Assembly (NCBI RefSeq): GCF_028009165.1
Contig: NC_079244.1
Span: 3,906,001-3,970,000 of the forward strand
Length of the DNA stretch: 64,000 nucleotides
DNA from: Akanthomyces muscarius
Lineage: Eukaryota; Ascomycota; Sordariomycetes; Hypocreales; Cordycipitaceae
Direction of reading: 5' to 3'
Part shown: piece after piece, positions 1,443 to 12,177 of the stretch
Numbering within the stretch: position 1 is the first letter of the stretch
How the letters are laid out: each line of letters starts with the position of its first letter
Position numbers and translations under genes: made by a program
Notes under the pieces: generated by a model
What the model was told of the DNA's origin: nothing
The model's input: only the letters and a program-made list of their open reading frames with translations
Databases searched by the model: none

Positions 1443-4400
1443 ATGACGGAATACGAGGATGAATACGACTACGAAAACTACGAGGAGGAAGATTCGGGCA
1501 TCACTCCCGAAGATTGCTGGACCGTCATATCCTCTTTCTTCGAATCTAAGGGCCTAGTCTCTCAGCAAACCGCCTCGTTTGATGAATTCACGCAGTCGAC
1601 CATACAAGATCTTGTCAGCGAGTACTCGAAAATTTCTCTCGATCAGCCCAACCCGCCGTCCACCGATGACCGGAAAATCAGCGTTCGCCGATATGAGATC
1701 GAGTTTGGCAGCATTATGGTCTCGAGACCTTCGATCAGTGAGACGGATGGAACAGTGACTTCGCTTCTCCCGTACGAGTGCCGCGACCGCAACTTGACCT
1801 ACGCTGCGCCGGTCTATATCAAGATAACAAAAAAAGTCCAAGCTGCCGTGGAGACAGAAATTCCTTTGCATGAACTCGACGACGCCCAACAGACGGAGTA
1901 TGCTAAGACTGGCGAACTGCCCACGCGACTGGCATGGGAATCGGAGGATGCGCCTGAGCCTGAAAACGCCAACAAGCCTGATGCCTGGAAGGACATGGTT
2001 TTCGTTGGGAAAATGCCGGTCATGGTCAAATCGAAAGTTTGCCACCTAAGCCGTGAGCACGATGAGAACCTGTTCCTCGTCAACGAGTGCCCATACGATC
2101 AGGGCGGTTACTTTGTCATCAATGGAAGCGAAAAGGTGCTAATCGCCCAAGAGCGTTCTGCCGCCAATATCGTCCAAGTGTTCAAAAAGGCTCAGCCCAG
2201 CCCATACACCTACACTGCTGAAATCAGGAGCGCTCTGGAGAAGGGTTCGCGCCTCATTTCCAGCATGATGCTCAAGCTCTACGGGAAAGGCGAGTCGGCC
2301 CGGGGCGGGTTCGGTCAAACGATTCATACAACACTTCCGTTCGTCAAATCAGACCTTCCTGTCGCCATTGTCTTCAGAGCTCTCGGCGTTGTTTCGGACG
2401 AGGACATTCTCAACCACATTTGCTACGACCGTAAGGACTCCCAAATGTTAGAAATGCTTCGGCCTTGTATTGAGGAAGCTTTTTGCGTCCAAGACCGTGA
2501 AGTCGCTCTCGACTTCATTGGCAAGCGCGGTAACCGGGACCAGGCTGGTCTTGGGCGCGACAAACGAATTCGTGTAGCACGCGATATTCTCCAAAAAGAA
2601 ACTTTGCCTCACATCTCTCAGGAAGCTGGTAGTGAGACACGCAAGGCTTTCTTTGTTGGCTACATGGTTCACAAGCTGCTTCAGTGCGCTCTGGGACGTC
2701 GCGAGCCCGACGACAGAGATCACTTTGGTAAAAAGCGTCTTGATCTAGCAGGTCCTCTACTCGCTAAGCTTTTCCGCGGTATTATGCGTCGAATGCACTC
2801 AGAGCTTGCCAACTACCTCAGACGCTGTGTTGAGGGCAACCGTCACTTCAACCTGGCTGTTGGTATCAAGCCCGGTACACTTTCAAATGGTCTCAAGTAC
2901 TCGCTTGCCACTGGTAACTGGGGCGACCAGAAGAAGGCCATGAGCTCAACTGCCGGTGTGTCTCAGGTGCTGAATCGCTATACGTTTGCCTCGACGCTGT
3001 CCCATCTTCGACGTACCAATACGCCCATCGGCAGAGATGGCAAACTGGCGAAACCTCGTCAGCTTCACAATACTCATTGGGGTCTCGTCTGTCCTGCTGA
3101 GACACCTGAAGGTCAGGCTTGTGGCCTAGTCAAAAACCTGTCTCTCATGTGTTACGTCAGCGTCGGTTCGCCCGCCGAGCCGCTCATTGACTTCATGATC
3201 AACAGGGGTATGGAAGTTATCGAAGAGTACGAACCACTCAGATATCCGCACGCTACCAAGATCTTTGTCAACGGGACCTGGGTTGGAGTTCACCAGGACC
3301 CGAAGCACCTTGTGGATCAGGTATTTGAAACCCGTCGCAAGTCATACCTACAGTACGAGGTGTCTCTCATCCGGGAAATCCGTGATCAAGAATTCAAGAT
3401 ATTCTCTGATGCGGGCCGAGTCATGCGGCCCGTTTTCACAGTACAGGAGAAAGACGACCCTGAGACTGGCCTTGAAAAGGGCCAGCTTGGTCTGACAAAG
3501 GATTTGGTCAACAAACTGGCGCAAGAGCAGGCTGACCCACCTGATGATCCAGAAATGAAGATGGGCTGGGAGGGTCTGATCAAAGCTGGCGCGATTGAGT
3601 ATTTGGATGCTGAAGAAGAGGAGACGTCAATGATTTGCATGACTCCGGAGGATCTGGAGCTCTATAGACTTCAAAAAGCAGGTATACCTGTCGAGGACGA
3701 CTCAGGCGAGGATCCAAACAAGCGCCTGAAGACGAAAACCAACCCAACCACACACATGTACACTCACTGCGAGATTCATCCAAGTATGATTTTGGGTATT
3801 TGTGCAAGTATCATTCCATTCCCGGACCACAATCAGGTAAGCTGCTCATCCTACACAGATCGGCGATTTCAGGAACTAACCAGTGCTCTAGTCTCCTCGT
3901 AATACCTACCAATCCGCAATGGGTAAACAAGCCATGGGATTCTTCCTGACGAATTACTCTCGCCGCATGGATACCATGGCGAACATTCTATACTATCCAC
4001 AAAAGCCTTTGGCTACGACTCGATCTATGGAGTTTCTGAAGTTCCGAGAACTACCTGCAGGTCAGAACGCCATCGTTGCCATCGCGTGTTACTCCGGTTA
4101 CAATCAGGAAGACTCCGTCATCATGAACCAAAGCAGTATCGATCGTGGTCTCTTCAGAAGCTTGTTTTTCCGTTCTTACTCTGATCAGGAGAAGAAGGTC
4201 GGGTTGAATTACACGGAAATTTTCGAAAAGCCTTTCCACCAAAGCACTCTGCGCATGAAACACGGCACTTACGACAAGCTCGACGAAGACGGTATCGTCG
4301 CGCCTGGTGTTCGCGTCTCTGGTGAAGACATCATTATTGGCAAAACTGCACCCATCGACCCGGAGACGCAAGATCTGGGCACGCGTACAACGGCGCACCA

Positions 4401-5338
4401 ACGCCGTGATATCTCTACACCTCTGCGTAGTACAGAAAACGGCATTGTCGATCAAGTCATTGTGACTGTCAACGCCGACAACGTCAAATACGTCAAGGTC
4501 CGAGTTCGTACGACGAAGATACCCCAGATCGGTGATAAATTTGCTTCAAGGCATGGTCAAAAGGGCACTATTGGTGTCACGTACCGACAGGAAGACATGC
4601 CGTTTACGAGAGAAGGTGTCACACCTGATATAATCATCAACCCGCACGCTATTCCCTCTCGAATGACAATTGCTCACTTGATTGAATGCCTTCTCAGTAA
4701 GGTTTCAACTTTGGAAGGTATGGAAGGCGATGCTACTCCGTTTACCGATGTCACCGTCGACTCTGTCTCCGACCTGCTCCGCAAGCATGGATATCAGTCG
4801 CGCGGTTTCGAGATCATGTACAATGGTCACACTGGCAAGAAACTCCGGGCTCAGGTCTTCTTCGGACCTACCTACTATCAGCGTCTACGTCACATGGTGG
4901 ACGACAAGATTCACGCACGCGCGCGTGGCCCCGTACAGATCATGACGCGGCAGCCCGTGGAAGGTCGTGCTAGAGACGGTGGTCTGCGTTTCGGTGAAAT
5001 GGAACGCGATTGTATGATTGCGCATGGCGCGGCGGCTTTCTTGAAGGAGCGTCTGTTCGAAGTCTCCGATGCATTCAGAGTGCACATTTGTGAGATTTGC
5101 GGCCTGATGACGCCCATCGCGTAAGTTGACCACTATATTACTACCTGGCAAAGTATTGACTAACCCTGTAACCAGAAACCTTTCGAAGCAATCTTTCGAA
5201 TGCAGGCCTTGCAAGAACAAGACCAAGATTGCCCAAATCCACATTCCATACGCAGCCAAGCTCTTGTTCCAGGAACTTCAATCCATGAACATTGCAGCAC
5301 GTATGTTTACGGACAGATCTGGTGCCTCTATCAGGTAA
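1443..5338 (+). CDS. RPB2: DNA-directed RNA polymerase II second-largest subunit
   Basis: Catalytic-core subunit of nuclear RNA polymerase II. Exons 1443-3836, 3892-5120 and 5176-5338 join in frame to 1261 residues, the normal Rpb2 length; both introns are 55 nt with GTAA donors. The start matches the acidic fungal Rpb2 N-terminus followed by [19 protein letters not shown]. Seen in order: lobe and fork regions, [19 protein letters not shown], the [18 protein letters not shown] segment near the active site, [13 protein letters not shown] of the hybrid-binding region, and a C-terminal zinc site, C1198-C1201 with C1217-C1220, that the second intron splits. It ends with the conserved GASIR. This gene is widely used as a phylogenetic marker, so it could place the organism precisely. 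Confidence 0.98.
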
Positions 5339-5710
5339 AGGGCACCCGAATATGGAGCGGAAAAAGTGCGTTTGTCTTATTTCTGTTTCCTTGCTTTATT
5401 CGGGGGTGGGGGGGGCTCTTTAGAAACCAAAACCTATGATACAAGTTATTCCAAAGCATGATCTGCGTCAAGCCAGACGCGAGTTTTGGTGGGAGATGGC
5501 CGGCGCAAAGATGTAAAGTAAATAAATGGTAGTGAGTTTGGCACAGATACATGTGGCTGTTAAACAGCTCCAGCCATGCATTTCACCAACACACGCATAA
5601 CAAATACAATAGAAAGATTGTATTCGAGGCCGATTTTCGCGACGTATCATTATTTTGCAAGTCGTAGATATTATACAGAAATCGATCGTGGTGTTTACCA
5701 TAGCACAAGG
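5339..5710. other. Convergent 3' region between RPB2 and PET117
   Basis: Shared 3' flanking DNA of two convergent genes. It contains a G-run around 5402-5415 and AT-richer stretches suited to polyadenylation. No coding signal is seen. Confidence 0.6.
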
Positions 5711-6060
5711 CTATGATTTGTTCATCCGACCGCCATCGCTTTGTAGCGGGGTCTCTAATGAGCTGCGAACGTTTTGCTCACGCTTGTATTCCTCTTCCAA
5801 TGCCTTTTGCATATCGAAATCAAGTTGGCGTTCGCGCTTAATTCGCTGTTGCTCCATATCGCGGACGACACCTTCGTGCATAGCCTGTAACGGAGAGTAT
5901 TCAGCAAGCGCGATCACGGCGTATTGATTCTTTTTCCATTGGTAGTTGCCCCAGGGTTGCGTACCTGCTTCTCGAACCTTTGCTGGAAGTGAACGAAGAG
6001 AATAGTGCTACCAGCGAAGAGCGAGGTACCCAAAAGGGTCAGCTTCGAGGCTCGAGACAT
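5711..6060 (-). CDS. PET117: Cytochrome c oxidase assembly protein PET117
   Basis: Small mitochondrial protein needed to assemble complex IV. On the minus strand, exon 1 is 6060-5965 (32 codons, beginning MSRASKLTLLGTSLFAGSTI) and exon 2 is 5884-5711, joined across an 80-nt intron with GTACGC donor and TTACAG acceptor, giving 89 residues. The N-terminus has the single hydrophobic membrane-anchor segment of the family. The second exon starts AMHEGVVRDMEQQRIKRE, the charged helix typical of PET117, and ends in a variable tail. The start codon lies about 250 bp from the transposon insertion; before the insertion this gene was divergent from VMA10. Confidence 0.9.
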
Positions 6061-6308: not shown

Positions 6309-6317
6309 GTACCTACT
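6309..6317 (+). repeat. Target-site duplication, left copy (GTACCTACT)
   Basis: Nine bases identical to 12169-12177, lying directly outside the left element end. A 9-bp duplication is typical of Mutator-like elements. The same 9-mer also occurs unduplicated at 36221 and 41674, so the word itself is common in intergenic DNA here. Confidence 0.75.
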
Positions 6318-6405
6318 GTGGATGGACATAACCTGACCATCGCTGAGCTGATAACCGAGGCGTGTTTAGCCGGGGTTCGGCCGGCGCGCCCTTGTACCGT
6401 TACAC
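6318..6405 (+). repeat. Left terminal inverted repeat
   Basis: From 6328 it matches the reverse complement of 12158-12071 at about 70 of 78 aligned bases, with 6-nt and 4-nt gaps. The longest shared words include GACCATCGCTGAGCTGATA and GTGTTTAGCCGGGGT. Most differences are C/T transitions. The outer 10 nt (6318-6327) share only GTG and one further base with the other end. Confidence 0.85.
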
Positions 6406-6492
6406 ATAGTTTTTCAGCAGCCAATGAGAAGCCGCGTTGCTTTGTTGTGATCCACTCTTTATGCACGAAAAAAAATTCACGCGTACCTATTT

Positions 6493-6515
6493 GGAACCGG
6501 TTCCAGACCAGTTCC
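6493..6515 (+). promoter_or_regulatory. Palindromic upstream block of the left finger gene
   Basis: GGAACCGGTTCC is a perfect palindrome followed by AGACCAGTTCC, 120-145 nt before the ATG at 6638. The same block, GGAACCGGTTC and GGTTCCAGACCGGTT, recurs 85-130 nt before the transposase ATG. The sharing suggests a common control element; whether a protein binds it is unknown. Confidence 0.5.
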
Positions 6516-6637
6516 CATCCCTTTCTTTTCTTTCTCCTTCAAGCTCTCCTCTCTTGACGATTGCGCTGCCCTCCGACCTCTCGTTCTTTGCGAATTAATT
6601 CACAATTGTCTCCGAACCGATTCCGAAACAATTCCAA

Positions 6638-7618
6638 ATGGCGCCATCATACAAGAACTCCGAGGCCTACCAGCGCTACCGCACCGCCGGCCGTCCCTCC
6701 GCAAACAAGCTGCCTGTTTTGCAGCAGAATAATGTACGTGTCTATTATTCTTTGAATAGAATCAATACTGAATCAATTCTAATAGGATGGCCGCTTTATG
6801 ATCATGTCTGGAGAGCTGTACTGCCGCTGGCGAGAGAATGGCAGGCTCTGTGTCTATGTTAGTTCTCGAATTCCTTCAGAAATGATTCCAAACTAATTCC
6901 GATTAGGAAGACATCTTTTCAAGCGAGAGTGCGCTGCACCGGCACTACGATATGGCCCACGAGGCACTGGTTAAGGACCGTACCTCTGGCCGCAACAAAA
7001 CCAAGCAGGAGATGAAGTTGCGCCGTGAGTACTGCTTTGGAATTGATTCCGTGTTGATACTGAAATATTTCCAGGCTGGTACGAGGACATTATGGAGGGC
7101 AGGAGGCCAACCTGGCTCCCGCGCAAGCCTCTGGACGGCTCTGCAGCCCCCCCGGGCGTGGCAACCTCGCCGCCTCGCCGCCGTGGTCAACACCACGATA
7201 CTTCGCAGGTATTGTTTGGAATTGGTTCTGAAATAATTCCGATGCTGATGAGAAATAGTTCGCGCCGCCCTCTGATTCTGATTCGGAGGAAGAGAACGAG
7301 CCAGTCGAGTCCTCTGAGGAGGAGGAGGAGGAGGAGGAGCGGGAGATCCCCGAAGAGGTGAGTATCGCTGGAACTATAACGGAATTAATTCTGACCTGAT
7401 TCCAAAAGGATCTGCACCGGCTGCCAAAGAATGACGATGGCAGCCTCGATCTGGATGCCATGCATGAGAATGCAGGCTATGTTTTCCGCACCATTCGTTG
7501 CCCACACTGCACGGCCAATGATGATGGTAAGTTTGACTGGAATTATTCCGGAATCAATTCTGACATGATTTCCAAAGAGTGCCCTGGCCCCCTGCCCGAC
7601 CCTGATTGCTCAGTTTAG
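6638..7618 (+). CDS. Transposon zinc-finger protein A (GC-rich paralogue)
   Basis: Seven exons (6638-6733, 6786-6857, 6907-7024, 7075-7208, 7259-7357, 7409-7526, 7578-7618) join in frame to 225 residues; all six introns are 49-52 nt. Residues 33-74 hold a finger-like C45-x8-C54-x14-H69-x4-H74 after the sequence GELYCRWR, then LRRWYEDI, a proline/arginine-rich linker, an acidic run of eight Glu near residue 160, and C204-x2-C207-x6-C214-x8-C223 at the end. Every cysteine spacing matches the minus-strand gene at 11268-11898. Probably a DNA-binding accessory of the transposon; no family name is recognised. An in-frame TAG at 7616-7618 is followed by an open acidic frame to TGA at 7718-7720, so the stop may be a recent nonsense change. 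Codon use is GC-rich, unlike the rest of the element. Confidence 0.8.
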
Positions 7619-8018
7619 AAAACGCACCAGGGTCGAGGCCTGGAATGGCCCGATTCGAGCGAGAGTGAGAGTGAGAGCGAGAGCGAGAGCGAGAGCTCTG
7701 ACGAGGATATGGAGGATTGATTCCGAATTGATTCCGAATTATCGCAGAGATAATTCGAAGAACGGCGTTTTGTTTTTTTATATACCAGGGAAAGATTCCC
7801 AATGAATGAATATGTTGGCTTTTTGTAAAAGAAACTTTATTTGTAAAAACTGTGAGAAGATTGATAAGATTTCACTGTGGAACTGATTCGGAACCGGTTC
7901 TACACTCGTTCCGGACTGGTTCCAGACCGGTTAGTAAGCAACTTTTTTGAATACTTTTTTTTTTTCAACTTCCTCAACACTCTTCCTCTTTTCCTCCTTC
8001 TATAACACAACCAAAGTT
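7619..8018. other. Gap between finger gene A and the transposase inside the element
   Basis: Begins with an acidic in-frame continuation of gene A (7619-7720) that includes a GAGAGC tandem repeat at about 7662-7696. Next come two consecutive GATTCCGAATT units and a T-rich pyrimidine leader at 7948-8018 just before the transposase ATG. Composition shifts from GC-rich to AT-rich at about 7930. Confidence 0.6.
7880..7932 (+). promoter_or_regulatory. Inverted-repeat upstream block of the transposase gene
   Basis: Contains GAACTGATTC, GGAACCGGTTC and GGTTCCAGACCGGTT in tandem; the last matches the block before gene A at 14 of 15 bases. It ends 86 nt before the chosen ATG at 8019. Confidence 0.5.
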
Positions 8019-11000
8019 ATGGAAACTAATTCGGAACCACATTTATATATTCTAACAGGGTCTACTACCCTAGAGGATAATAATTCGTCACATTTACGTG
8101 TTGAAACAATCTTTTATTCACCTTTAATTCCTGATTATCCTTCTACAAGCTTATCTGGAATTGCTTATATTATTCCAACAAATTCACTTCAACAAGAGGA
8201 TATAATCCAACCTTGGAATACAGTATGTTTCTATATCATTTATTAACTTATTTAGAATTAATTCTAATTTACTTTCTATTAGATTCAATACTGTTCAGCC
8301 CGCAAGATACCTGGAAAGAAGTCTTCAGTTACTATCTTCCATGGTAGACCTTGTTTTCGTTATCAACGCACTTGTCAAGGTGGACAAATTTGTGAATTTT
8401 TCCGAAATATCACTTCTTGGAACCATTCAGAAGTTAATTCGGAATTATTTCAAAAACTATCAAGACTTCAAAAAGAAGCTGAATTAAATTCAGTTAAAAA
8501 TAAGGCTATTACGTTAGTTTTTCTTTTATTTATTCTCTTATTCCTCTTTTATTAATAGATATAATAGGTGGGCACATGCCCAGTTAAAGGCCTTTTCCCA
8601 TCCAAATCAACGAGGTTGTAATCCTCGAAGAGATACTTGTCGGTTAATATTATATATAACTGATTTAAGTGTGAGTTTTATTTCTAAATTAATTCTTAAC
8701 TAGTTCTAATTTATTTTTATAGCGAATATCACACACAGCAGAAAAGCATGTATGCTGTTCTCATTTTCAGACAGTACCAACAGCCTCTTTTGAGCTACAT
8801 TATTTTACTATATGCCCTTTAGAGTATCAAGAATATTCTAATCTTATAGAGGCTATTTTTAATAATGAGGCTCTTAATGAGGAAGATTCTTGTTATGCTA
8901 TACACTCAACAAGACGGAAAAAGAAAACTTGTGGTAAGTTTATTTAGAATTATTTCGAAATTAGTACTAATATATTTCTCACTTAGATATGAATCACTTA
9001 CAACGCCAAGGAAGACTACAACCAGTACATTGCTCTGTTATTTTTAATTTCCTGCTGCCTATTGGTAGTGATTCTTCTTTCCCAGGAATTATTATTACTT
9101 CTCATGGAATTCACTCTCATCCTCCAATTGCTCCATCAATTATACCAGCTTCAATTACAGCACAGCTATATACTCTTTTACTCCGGATTAAGGGTAAAAC
9201 TACCTCAATTAGTAAGTTTCTAACTCTTTCTAAATTAATTCTAAACTATTTCCTAACTATTTCTAGTCCCTTTTCTAGCGAACCCACATGTTCGTGAATT
9301 CCTTACAAGCTATGGGGCTTTATCTTTTACAGAAATCCATCTAGCATTTGCAAATATGGATAGAATAAAAGCACTTATGACTAAAGTGCTATTAATTCAT
9401 AATCCAGCTGGTGCTGATCGGGTTGCTACACAGTTAGCCTATTATAATCAACCAGAGTCATCAAGAGTAAGTTGATACTTTATATTTATTTCGAAATTAA
9501 TTCCATACTAATTCTAATATGTTTTAGTATATCCAATATTTTGAGGATAATGGTGAAGATTATTTAGCTATTTGTTTCTTTCAAGAACAAGCTAAATTAT
9601 TTCAAGATCAAAAGGTTATAACCTTTCAAATGGATGCAAATTATAAGCATCGATTTGGACAACAACATGTGGAATTAATCTGGGCTTATTACTCAGATAA
9701 TGCAAATAAAAGTAAGTTCTATCTTGAATTAATACAGAATTAATTCTAATATATCTTAAAGGTATTACACTTTTACGCGCCTATTATAATAACGAGGGTG
9801 CAAATACTATTGAATTTATATTCAAAAAAGTACATGAAATCTTCTACCAACGATATAACTTCACTTTAAAGTGGAATTATTTACATGGTGAAGGTTTAAT
9901 TGGAGTTACAATGGACCAGGCATGGGATGGTATTAAAGGTAAGTTACATATTAATTATTAAGAGTTCCGAATTGATTCTAATCTATTTAGGATTTGGTGT
10001 ATATCTACAATCTCTTGATACACAACAACGAGGTTGGGAATGGCATTGTTTAAATGTTATTAGATTTTGCCTAGTTCATTTTGAACGTGGTATAAGTCGT
10101 ATTTGTGGAGAACATGCCTCTCGTGCTCCTAATTCTTTATATGGGCAGATGGCTTCTATTTTAGCTGTTTCTTCAGCTGAAAGTTATAGCCGTATCTTAC
10201 GAGGGCTAATGTGTAAGTTATTTCTTATTTATTTCAGAATTAATTCTAATTTGCTTTATTATTAGTTCATCAACGTCAAGATGTACGAAATTGGGCTATA
10301 CATAAAAGCTCAGCTATTCTACAATCTGGTTTAAACCCGCATTGTAGTCTAATTCGAAGAGAGTTTTGGAATTTAATGTCTAGGCATACAAATATTGTTG
10401 AAGCGCTTCACCAACAATCATATGTGTGGACTGGACGTTTTTTACCACTACTTAACTGTATTGAGAGGTATACCATTGAACTATTACTAAATTAGTTTAT
10501 AACTAACTCTAAATCAGTTCGAAAATACTTGATCGAGTTATTATGCAAGCTTTAGCTGCAGCATCAGGGTATAATTTAACCCTTCAGGGTATAATTTAAC
10601 CCTATCATATACCGATAATAGCTTTCATTCAAGGGTTCAAAGACAGGTTAAAAGAACAAGTAAGTATTTTCTTTTAACTAAAAATACTTTAATATTAATT
10701 CTAAAATAGATATAAGCCGGGATACTCGGTTTAGACAGCGTTCTAATACTCCTCTACGAGATAATTCTCGAGTTCGATCTAGAGTAAATTCTCAGATTAA
10801 CTCAGTTACTAATTCAAGAGAAAACTCTAGAAATAGTTCTGAAGTAAATCCTGGAATTAATTCCGATTTAACTCAAAGAGAAATACAACCAACAGCTTTA
10901 TCAACTATTGCTTCTTTAGCACTTTTACAACGTGCAACCTCCTCAGGAACACTTCCAAATCAACAACAAAGGTATTATATTTTTATTTTTATAATAATAT

Positions 11001-11140
11001 CTTATTAATTTTATCTTAGAAGACCTCAGCTTACTAGTCTTTCCTCTGATGTAGATTTAAGGCAGCTAGTTCAACAACAAGCTGAACAGATTGTATTATT
11101 ACAACAACAACTTGAGAATCAGTCTAGAACTAGTTCCTAA
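8019..11140 (+). CDS. MULE-like DDE transposase, intron-rich
   Basis: Likely exons: 8019-8222, 8283-8512, 8559-8670, 8723-8933, 8987-9211, 9267-9466, 9528-9711, 9762-9938, 9991-10212, 10266-10467, 10518-10568, 10622-10659, 10710-10971, 11020-11140. They join to 812 residues, all strongly AT-rich. An N-terminal Cys/His region (C165, C172, H191, C193) resembles the zinc domain of MULE transposases. The core has FQMD (D430), VTMD (D507), then CLVH at 541-544, the C-x2-H expected after the second Asp, and IVEALH (E634) as candidate third acid. The C-terminus is Ser/Asn/Gln-rich with a Gln-rich coiled-coil segment. A 20-bp tandem duplication at 10564-10603 breaks the frame unless 10569-10621 is spliced out. 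The second-intron acceptor could also be 9 nt further on. Confidence 0.8.
10564..10603 (+). repeat. Perfect 20-bp tandem duplication in the transposase gene
   Basis: The unit at 10564-10583 is repeated exactly at 10584-10603. With one copy the reading frame is open; with two it is shifted and stops, unless a 53-nt GT..AG segment (10569-10621) is removed as an intron. Confidence 0.9.
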
Positions 11141-11267
11141 CTAAATTTTATTATAGTAAAATCTATATTCTTTATTACTTCTTTACTAATAGTAATAAAT
11201 AAAGTAATATATTAAGAGTTATAGTATTAATATATAAAAGTATAATCTAATTATATTAAATTAATTC

Positions 11268-11898
11268 CTAATTATTACTTAAAGGTTCCTCAAACCTCTC
11301 CCAGATAATACAGTCCTTATCATAAAAGTTAGGAGGACATTTTCTTCCTTTTTCCTTACATAATACACAATTATTTGGGTTTCTCCCACTTTCAAGAATT
11401 AATTTTGAAATATTAACCTTTTTATTCCGAAATATCGGTGCAGGGAGCTTTATAGCCTTTTGGTTATTATAATGAATTAAAGGCTGTTGCTCTTCATCCA
11501 TTCCTTGTGATAGTGGGGAAGGTTGATTTGGAGTTGGAATTAATTCCTGAGTAATTTAAAAGTTAATAAGAATTAATAAAGAAATAAATATAATATACCT
11601 TTTTAAATTGATTATACCACTTTAGTATTATAACCTCACGGCTTGCATTTATTCTTCCAACTGATGGTGTGTAAATATCTACACCATGTCTTTTGATATG
11701 CTTGCGTAGGTTTGGTGTAGAGGTATAGGGTAGTGCATGTATACACGGTTCAGAATCAATTCGGTATCGACAATACACCTCTCCAGGGTAGATAATAGCC
11801 TTGCCATCACAGTATTCATACTCTGGTAGATTATCTGGGCGTATTCCGTTATTTTGATAGGCAATATAGCCTGCAGTTGTCTGATAAAGAGGTGGCAT
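11268..11898 (-). CDS. Transposon zinc-finger protein C (AT-rich paralogue)
   Basis: Exons 11898-11599 (100 codons) and 11546-11268, joined over a 52-nt intron, encode 192 residues. The finger C43-x8-C52-x14-H67-x3-H71 follows GEVYCRYR, then LKWYNQF, and near the end C160-x2-C163-x6-C170-x8-C179. The order, spacing and flanking words (DGK..GEVYCRYR against DGR..GELYCRWR; LKWY against LRRWY) show it is a paralogue of the gene at 6638-7618. It lies next to the right TIR and reads inward, mirroring that gene. Codon use is AT-rich like the transposase. Probably a DNA-binding or transposase-accessory protein; function inferred only. Confidence 0.8.
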
Positions 11899-12070
11899 TA
11901 GAATTGATTTCGTGTTGTTATTGAATTCTTTCCGAAAGAGTTCTGAAAGCGCTCTGTATTGATTACGTTAAGTACACGTTAGTATCATATTAGCTGCGTA
12001 AGTGCATAAATATGCAATATCTACATGTGATATGCTAGTAATGAGGTGGCCCGTGGTGATAAGTGGAGAC

Positions 12071-12168
12071 GTGTAAGGCACAGTACAAGGACTCGCCGGC
12101 CGGACCCCGGCTAAACACACCTCTGGTCAGGCTATCAGCTCAGCGATGGTCGGGTTATCTATGAGCAC
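12071..12168 (-). repeat. Right terminal inverted repeat
   Basis: Reverse complement pairs with 6318-6405. It has two small insertions relative to the left copy (6 nt reading TGACCA, and 4 nt reading TGCC on the element-inward strand). Confidence 0.85.
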
Positions 12169-12177
12169 GTACCTACT
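12169..12177 (+). repeat. Target-site duplication, right copy (GTACCTACT)
   Basis: Identical to 6309-6317 and separated from the strongly conserved TIR core by exactly the same 10 nt as on the left side. Confidence 0.75.

Follow-up and report, generated by a model that had tools for sequence, protein, structure and literature searches.

Paired C2H2-like finger genes and a repeated private palindrome in two putative Mutator-like transposon families of Akanthomyces muscarius

We describe a transposon, E1, in a 64-kb window of DNA from Akanthomyces muscarius (the window is the whole stretch that was analysed; the host genome comprises 36.2 Mb in 12 contigs), together with a second family, E2, from the same genome. 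In each family a transposase gene is accompanied by two sister genes for C2H2-like finger proteins, and a short palindrome private to the family recurs through the element: GAAYYRRTTC in E1 and GCATATGC in E2. The finger pair and the private palindrome are associated in both families, and both are absent in three canonical Mutator-like elements (MULEs) of the same genome. Our favoured account is that E1 is an autonomous DNA transposon of a divergent Mutator-like kind, probably moving by cut and paste, and that its two sister proteins would bind the palindrome. With the palindrome repeated in introns, promoters, gaps between genes and subterminal DNA, the finger proteins would coat their own element and no other; the coating would most likely protect the three genes from host silencing, so that they stay accessible and expressed, and it may add transcriptional feedback. 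The finger pair and the motif would have changed together at the split of the families. For this account as a whole, in which a finger pair coats its own element via a private palindrome as sequence-specific anti-silencing, we estimate a probability of about 0.5.

The private palindromes and their distribution

The E1 word occurs at 19 exact sites in the element, 11 in the left 1.7 kb and 8 in the rest, where shuffles give means of 0.04 and 0.09; the E2 word occurs at 45 exact sites (shuffle mean 0.36). A scan of nearby DNA (77,046 bp) gave only one exact E1 word and no exact E2 word; neither element contains an exact copy of the other's word. The commonest 8-mer is present 24 times in E1 and 54 times in E2, with shuffle maxima of 10 and 6, respectively. 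In E1 a lag of 11 bp separates TTC triplets 27 times, compared with 2.7 in shuffles, which is the strongest of the lags exceeding all 100 shuffles. Across the whole genome, the strict tandem form of the E1 pattern turned up in the two E1 copies only. A longer form of the E2 word, AGCATATGCTSA, has 114 matches genome-wide on both strands compared with 5 for the pattern read backwards; E2 copies account for 87 of the 100 matches that were listed out of these 114, the other 13 being elsewhere. The E2 word is also carried by a 56-bp tandem unit, which is present in three E2 copies and not in another (L040); E2 copies have gained or lost a motif via this unit.

Exact sites are densest in introns (9.1 per kb in E1 and 15.7 in E2), followed by intergenic and terminal DNA (5.9 and 9.5) and exons (1.0 and 2.1). 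When one mismatch is allowed, 14 of the 19 E1 introns and all 27 E2 introns contain their own family's word (shuffle means 0.64 and 1.74), and 9 and 21 of them, respectively, contain it exactly; the other family's word, at the same tolerance, is found in none of the E1 introns and in one of the E2 introns. Each of the six genes has at least one site with at most one mismatch within 200 bp upstream of its ATG, the rate in the window flank being 0.07-0.08 per 200 bp. The outermost sites lie 176 and 258 bp from the tips of E1 (at most one mismatch) and 81 and 101 bp from those of E2 (exact). Because the sites run across the element and are not at its tips, a whole-element role (open chromatin, driving of the genes) is suggested rather than synapsis of the tips, and the palindromic form of the word suggests a dimer on duplex DNA. 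The initial annotation gave an inventory of E1 that was borne out by our analysis, but it missed the dispersed palindrome in most introns and upstream of the three genes. Its proposal that the finger proteins recognise the terminal repeats, one protein per end, is not supported: in E2 both finger genes lie in the right half, and in both families the candidate target word is element-wide.

The introns of the two transposase genes allow a direct comparison. The aligned part contains 11 introns in E1 and 9 in E2, and five pairs share alignment column (one pair is off by one) and phase; each of these ten introns carries its own family's word with at most one mismatch. Since introns at shared positions carry different words, they are older than the words in them. 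The idea that introns were gained together with the motif after the family split is therefore not supported for these five, which have the same place and phase; 6 of the 11 E1 introns and 4 of the 9 E2 introns in the aligned part have no such counterpart.

As controls we took three (L051, L052 and L053) of the four places in the same genome that match PF10551. These elements have terminal repeats of 75-83 bp, 1.2-2.9 kb between the ends, partly broken frames and a clear Pfam MULE match. In the DNA between the terminal repeats, the counts of the commonest 8-mer are 2-3 (shuffle maxima 3-6), so that no repeated word was found there, and the finger proteins had no match in any of the three. In the 8 kb around L053, two GC-rich 8-mers occur 11 times each, above the shuffle maximum of 7, and both lie outside the element; its own commonest 8-mer (6 occurrences) is confined to the terminal repeats.

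The finger proteins have their best candidate target in the repeated palindrome, and most simply each family's finger pair would be the reader of that family's word.

Copies, genes and finger proteins

E1 is a complete element, as had been annotated initially, and its proposed limits (window 6318-12168) are correct: the ends are long terminal inverted repeats of about 83-89 bp, flanked on both sides by the 9-bp target duplication GTACCTACT. A second copy on contig C6 (L006) is 99.5% identical over 5858 bp and has a 9-bp duplication of its own, AACTGCTTT, unlike that of the window copy; the three E1 genes therefore transposed as one unit. Four substitutions separate the two copies, together with 6 bp of difference in the left repeat and a tandem duplication of 20 bp present in the window copy; from this low divergence the movement of E1 is recent. 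In composition E1 is a mosaic, with 49% GC in window 6318-8000 compared with 32% in 8001-12168, and the frames are largely open in both parts. A lone E1-like tip was seen on contig C4 (L007, about 5630-5753), and neither a partner repeat nor an exact E1 word was found within 9.5 kb of it.

The E2 family was reached through three distant places that matched the E1 transposase at 32% identity over residues 515-713. It is 7.5 kb long, with terminal inverted repeats of about 98 bp (78% identity), and six insertions were found in the genome, all flanked by a 9-bp duplication (flanks read by eye). Five copies are alike at about 98.9% or more, and the sixth is heavily altered by repeat-induced point mutation (RIP). 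The E2 transposase gene has 11 exons, and its product is 25% identical to that of E1 (705 and 758 residues aligned). Two C2H2-like finger genes, B with 5 exons and C with 14, occupy the right half on the minus strand; they are paralogues of each other (BLASTP E 1e-13 for the first 162 and 171 residues), with finger spacings of C-x10-C-x12-H-x4-H and C-x9-C-x15-H-x4-H, respectively. Thus the three-gene set described for E1 recurs in E2, but the symmetric layout does not, as both finger genes are in one half.

The sixth E2 copy (L048, G000 C1:6921791-6929367) is full-length, and its 1372 substitutions include 1356 C-to-T or G-to-A changes, of which 915 fall at CpA. With 910 of 1072 CpA sites mutated it is almost RIP-saturated, yet its 9-bp target duplication is still perfect, and it is a clean object for dating and for the RIP spectrum. 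This contig C1 copy was also considered as a third family and rejected, being a RIP-mutated E2 copy. Two further E2 copies, L046 (C3:1.08 Mb) and L047 (C4:0.65 Mb), each differ from L040 by 21 G to A changes, all at CpA and on one strand, and by 7 or 6 others, a light, strand-biased RIP-like pattern that both seemingly share. Lone ends related to the E2 tips were seen at C10:1226028 and C11:330751, the partner end not being found nearby; within about 17-18 kb of them a search for a third family turned up nothing related to the six genes, and no 8-mer was dominant.

The features of E1 are collected in Table 1. Genes 1 and 3 read inward with the transposase gene between them, both proteins have the C-x8-C-x14-H-x3/4-H finger and a C-terminal C-x2-C-x6-C-x8-C (recounted by eye on the spliced proteins), and the two are paralogues, with 28% identity over 109 residues (BLASTP E 7e-12) and a score for the first 118 and 110 residues that none of 2000 shuffles reached. 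In these respects our spliced models agree with the initial annotation. Gene 1 ends at an in-frame TAG (7616-7618), after which an acidic Ser/Glu-rich tail continues in frame to 7720, up to a TGA; the two E1 copies have no differences in this region (7616-7720), and the TAG may be read through or may be a late stop. A short tandem duplication within exon 11 throws the transposase of the window copy out of frame, and the C6 copy has an open frame of 823 residues. At the coding end of the transposase (window 10740-10880) an Asn-Ser pattern of four residues is repeated; by eye, the underlying DNA is similar to the E1 word with a step of 12 bp, and it looks as though the E1 word had been fitted into the coding frame.

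Table 1. Features of E1 and its borders in the window
Feature	Position	Strand	Basis or remark
Target site duplication, left copy, GTACCTACT	6309..6317	.	exact 9-mer flanking both ends
Left terminal inverted repeat	6318..6400	+	inverted-repeat arms and alignment
GAAYYRRTTC sites upstream of gene 1	6494..6634	.	6494, 6592, 6614 exact; 6625 one mismatch
Gene 1, GC-rich finger gene, 7 exons, 225 residues	6638..7618	+	spliced model
Gene 1 exons	6638-6733, 6786-6857, 6907-7024, 7075-7208, 7259-7357, 7409-7526, 7578-7618	+	
11-bp phased E1 palindrome array, between gene 1 and transposase	7880..7934	.	motif scan
Transposase gene, 13 exons	8019..11140	+	spliced model; D430, D507, C541-H544, E634 common to E2
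12 short transposase introns	8223..11019	+	most with E1 palindrome; 5 match E2 introns in position and phase
Gene 3, AT-rich finger gene, 2 exons (11898-11599, 11546-11268), 192 residues	11268..11898	-	spliced model
E1 palindrome just upstream of gene 3	11901..11910	.	one mismatch; single such site
Right terminal inverted repeat	12080..12168	-	inverted-repeat arms and alignment
Target site duplication, right copy, GTACCTACT	12169..12177	.	exact 9-mer flanking both ends

In an alignment of genes 1, 3, B and C the four finger ligands, in the order C, C, H, H, are invariant. No shuffle out of 2000 reached the score of either within-family pair, and judged by sequence the fingers of one family resemble each other more than they resemble those of the other family; independent duplication, or a shared constraint from a shared target, would each explain this closer likeness. 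Base composition divides the finger genes of each family into a GC-rich member (0.60, 0.67) and an AT-rich one (0.36, 0.43). When the whole genome was searched at E 0.1, gene 3 and the first 140 residues of gene 1 matched only the two E1 copies (gene 1 also matches gene 3, E 3.9e-6), and B (first 175 residues) and C (first 181) matched only E2 copies. It had been considered initially that the small genes might turn out to be isolated host genes, or that no other element would have this arrangement; within this genome and at this threshold the finger genes were found only inside elements, and E2 has the same gene set.

Pfam scans of all six proteins (the E2 transposase by its first 758 residues) gave nothing above the cut-off, the best match being zf-C2H2 in gene B only, at 17.1 bits compared with a cut-off of 25.2. 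Canonical C2H2 fingers have the spacing C-x2/4-C, and here it is C-x8 to x10-C. Profile searches of the PDB gave no match at E 0.001 or better, and zinc fingers were matched only at E 0.76-6.5 (four of the five matches listed). An AlphaFold model of gene 3 exon 1 alone had a predicted local distance difference test score of 36 and was not used. A protein database search with gene 3 and the transposase returned nothing at E 0.01, but this search needs shared exact words and so does not show absence elsewhere; an RPB2 control query recovered fungal proteins. Transposon genes are often unannotated. Viral contigs scanned with two short peptide patterns gave no match.

A coding stretch for RPB2 (RNA polymerase II second subunit) lies beside E1 at window 3919-5124, and unnamed database proteins are at most 98% identical to it.

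Class of the elements and rival explanations

Membership of E1 and E2 among the MULEs is plausible from their sequences. All eight full-length insertions (two of E1 and six of E2) have 9-bp target duplications, within the 8-11 bp of MULEs, and both families have long terminal inverted repeats. The D..D..CxxH..E pattern is the type of canonical MULE transposases and a hallmark of MULEs; in this layout E1 and E2, the sole pair aligned, agree at D430, D507, C541-H544 and E634, and these residues are predicted to be catalytic.

Several observations weigh against the favoured account. With respect to class, Pfam MULE gave no match to either transposase at E 1, a PF10551 search of the genome matched four other places and neither E1 nor E2, and hhalign with the C-terminal portion of a single canonical MULE gave a non-significant probability of 0.2, with a two-sequence profile for which a distant relation is possible. 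The name MULE given in the initial annotation is plausible by duplications and residue layout, but the corresponding Pfam or profile match was not obtained. With respect to the fingers, similarity between families is weak: the scores of gene 1 with B and C were reached by 5 and 69 of 2000 shuffles and those of gene 3 by 77 and 68, and hhalign between the two finger pairs gave a probability of 22 and an E value of 0.001 over 30 columns. At a tolerance of one mismatch, the nearby 77 kb contains the words 26 and 28 times. All gene models were spliced by eye from GT-AG borders and open frames without RNA, and the families seen are two, in one genome. Finally, in the RIP-mutated E2 copy the CpA sites were mutated at 92 of 98 inside the motif and at 818 of 974 outside; in the GCAT context the counts are 87 of 92 in the motif and 72 of 81 outside (p 0.26). 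As the CpA of the motif was hit at least as often as elsewhere, there was no local shelter from RIP in L048, and the idea that the motif shelters its sites from RIP is not supported by this one mutated E2 copy. To these points is added the position of the motif relative to the branch point: a branch-like CTRAY directly follows it in 11 of 27 E2 introns and 9 of 19 E1 introns.

Because the motif so often abuts a branch-point-like sequence, a splicing role is possible. The palindrome would then be an intronic signal that the host or the fingers recognise in RNA, letting only the element's own transcripts splice well, and the highest site density is indeed in introns. However, exact sites are also frequent in intergenic and terminal DNA (5.9 and 9.5 per kb), there are sites upstream of six genes, and CATATG occurs in E2 transposase exons in all three frames (6, 3 and 3). 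Also, a palindromic word serves genes on both strands, and homologous introns of E1 and E2 carry different words. We therefore consider a splicing code unlikely.

Likewise unlikely, in our estimate, is that the palindrome is the site of a host factor exploited for transcription, the fingers acting in transposition by tip binding, the role put forward in the initial annotation, or by target joining, somewhat as has been described for mudrB. The presence of the word upstream of six genes agrees with this, and extra MULE genes, some with C2H2 domains, are in print (PMC6446971, in the part available). Nevertheless, the exact words are nearly absent from the nearby 77 kb of host DNA (1 and 0), two families in one host have different words, and finger pair and word go together in both families seen.

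We regard as improbable that a chance word was spread without function by slippage, tandem duplication or gene conversion. The 56-bp tandem unit does vary in number among E2 copies, and the 11-bp phasing of E1 resembles a decayed tandem repeat; but palindrome cores are scattered singly in otherwise differing introns and in exons, the two finger-bearing families have different words, and the pattern was not seen in the three finger-less MULEs.

The RIP homology search has a period of 11-12 bp. That phased repeats act directly as DNA on host repeat recognition (RIP or pairing) with no protein reader is very improbable: RIP has been active in the genome, as the 1356 substitutions noted above indicate, and the E1 sites are phased at 11 bp, but most sites in the E2 right half are about 100 bp apart and not 11-bp phased, and in the mutated copy RIP spared the motif sites no more than other sites.

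Relation to known systems and significance

Sequence-specific anti-silencing by a transposon is known from the VANDALs of Arabidopsis, and the likeness of E1 and E2 to the VANDAL/VANC system appears to lie in anatomy. As far as the available parts of the papers describe them, VANDAL21/Hiun and VANDAL6 (with VANC21 and VANC6) also have three genes, vanA, vanB and vanC (PMC5735166, PMC10398659). The private motif of VANC21 lies in introns and in intergenic and terminal non-coding DNA, the motif of the related VANC6 is different, and tandem repeats change the motif number, as they do in E2 (PMC5735166); VANDAL silencing and anti-silencing are placed in the same non-coding parts (PMC10398659). Anti-silencing would be the most likely role of the coating, which we hold with moderate confidence by analogy, because of this motif distribution and because silencing occurs in the same non-coding parts (PMC5735166, PMC10398659). 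E1 and E2 thus share with VANDALs a transposase with accessory genes and a dispersed, family-specific non-coding motif. Unlike VANDALs they are fungal, have two sister C2H2-like proteins and a palindrome, and are known here from sequence alone. Unlike the palindromes of E1 and E2, the YAGTATTAY motif of VANC21 has a direction, and its arrays keep to one orientation (PMC5735166, PMC10398659, in the parts available).

Other systems share single features with E1. Hop-type and other canonical MULEs, including our three controls, resemble it in having terminal inverted repeats (75-83 bp in the controls), and the controls differ in their shorter interior, partly broken frames and Pfam MULE match, with neither a finger nor a repeated word. 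Mutyl of Yarrowia lipolytica, with mutB, is an ascomycete MULE with 9-10 bp duplications and a second gene with a C2H2 finger; compared by description only, it differs from E1 in its single extra gene and 22-bp terminal repeats, and no private dispersed motif is mentioned in the available part of the paper (PMC6446971). Spectre, from aphids and beetles, is a MULE with a C2H2 zinc finger open reading frame (ORF) separate from the transposase ORF, and it differs in its animal hosts, its one finger ORF and an 8-bp duplication (PMC6446971, same part). Since finger ORFs in MULEs are known from these two elements, an extra finger ORF alone is ordinary. The fungal DNA transposons with TET/JBP dioxygenases also have an accessory gene, which acts on DNA methylation and encodes an enzyme, not a DNA reader; the carriers named are hAT, IS3EU, Harbinger, EnSpm, Plavaka and Zisupton, and neither "mutator" nor "mule" appears in the text available (PMC12730594). 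In open-licence literature, among the matches listed, no title described a fungal element with a private dispersed motif, and no account was found of one fungus having two families that each combine a sister-finger pair with a private word.

Returning to coating of the element by its finger pair, we tentatively suggest that fungal transposons have evolved sequence-specific self-recognition and anti-silencing independently of plants, with the sister-finger reader and its word co-evolving at family splits. That one genome contains two families differing in both word and finger pair makes for a natural swap experiment on word specificity. If the account is true, the readers are small proteins of new specificity, and the same anatomy exists in fungi with different reader proteins, which would make anti-silencing a more general strategy, here in a host with RIP.

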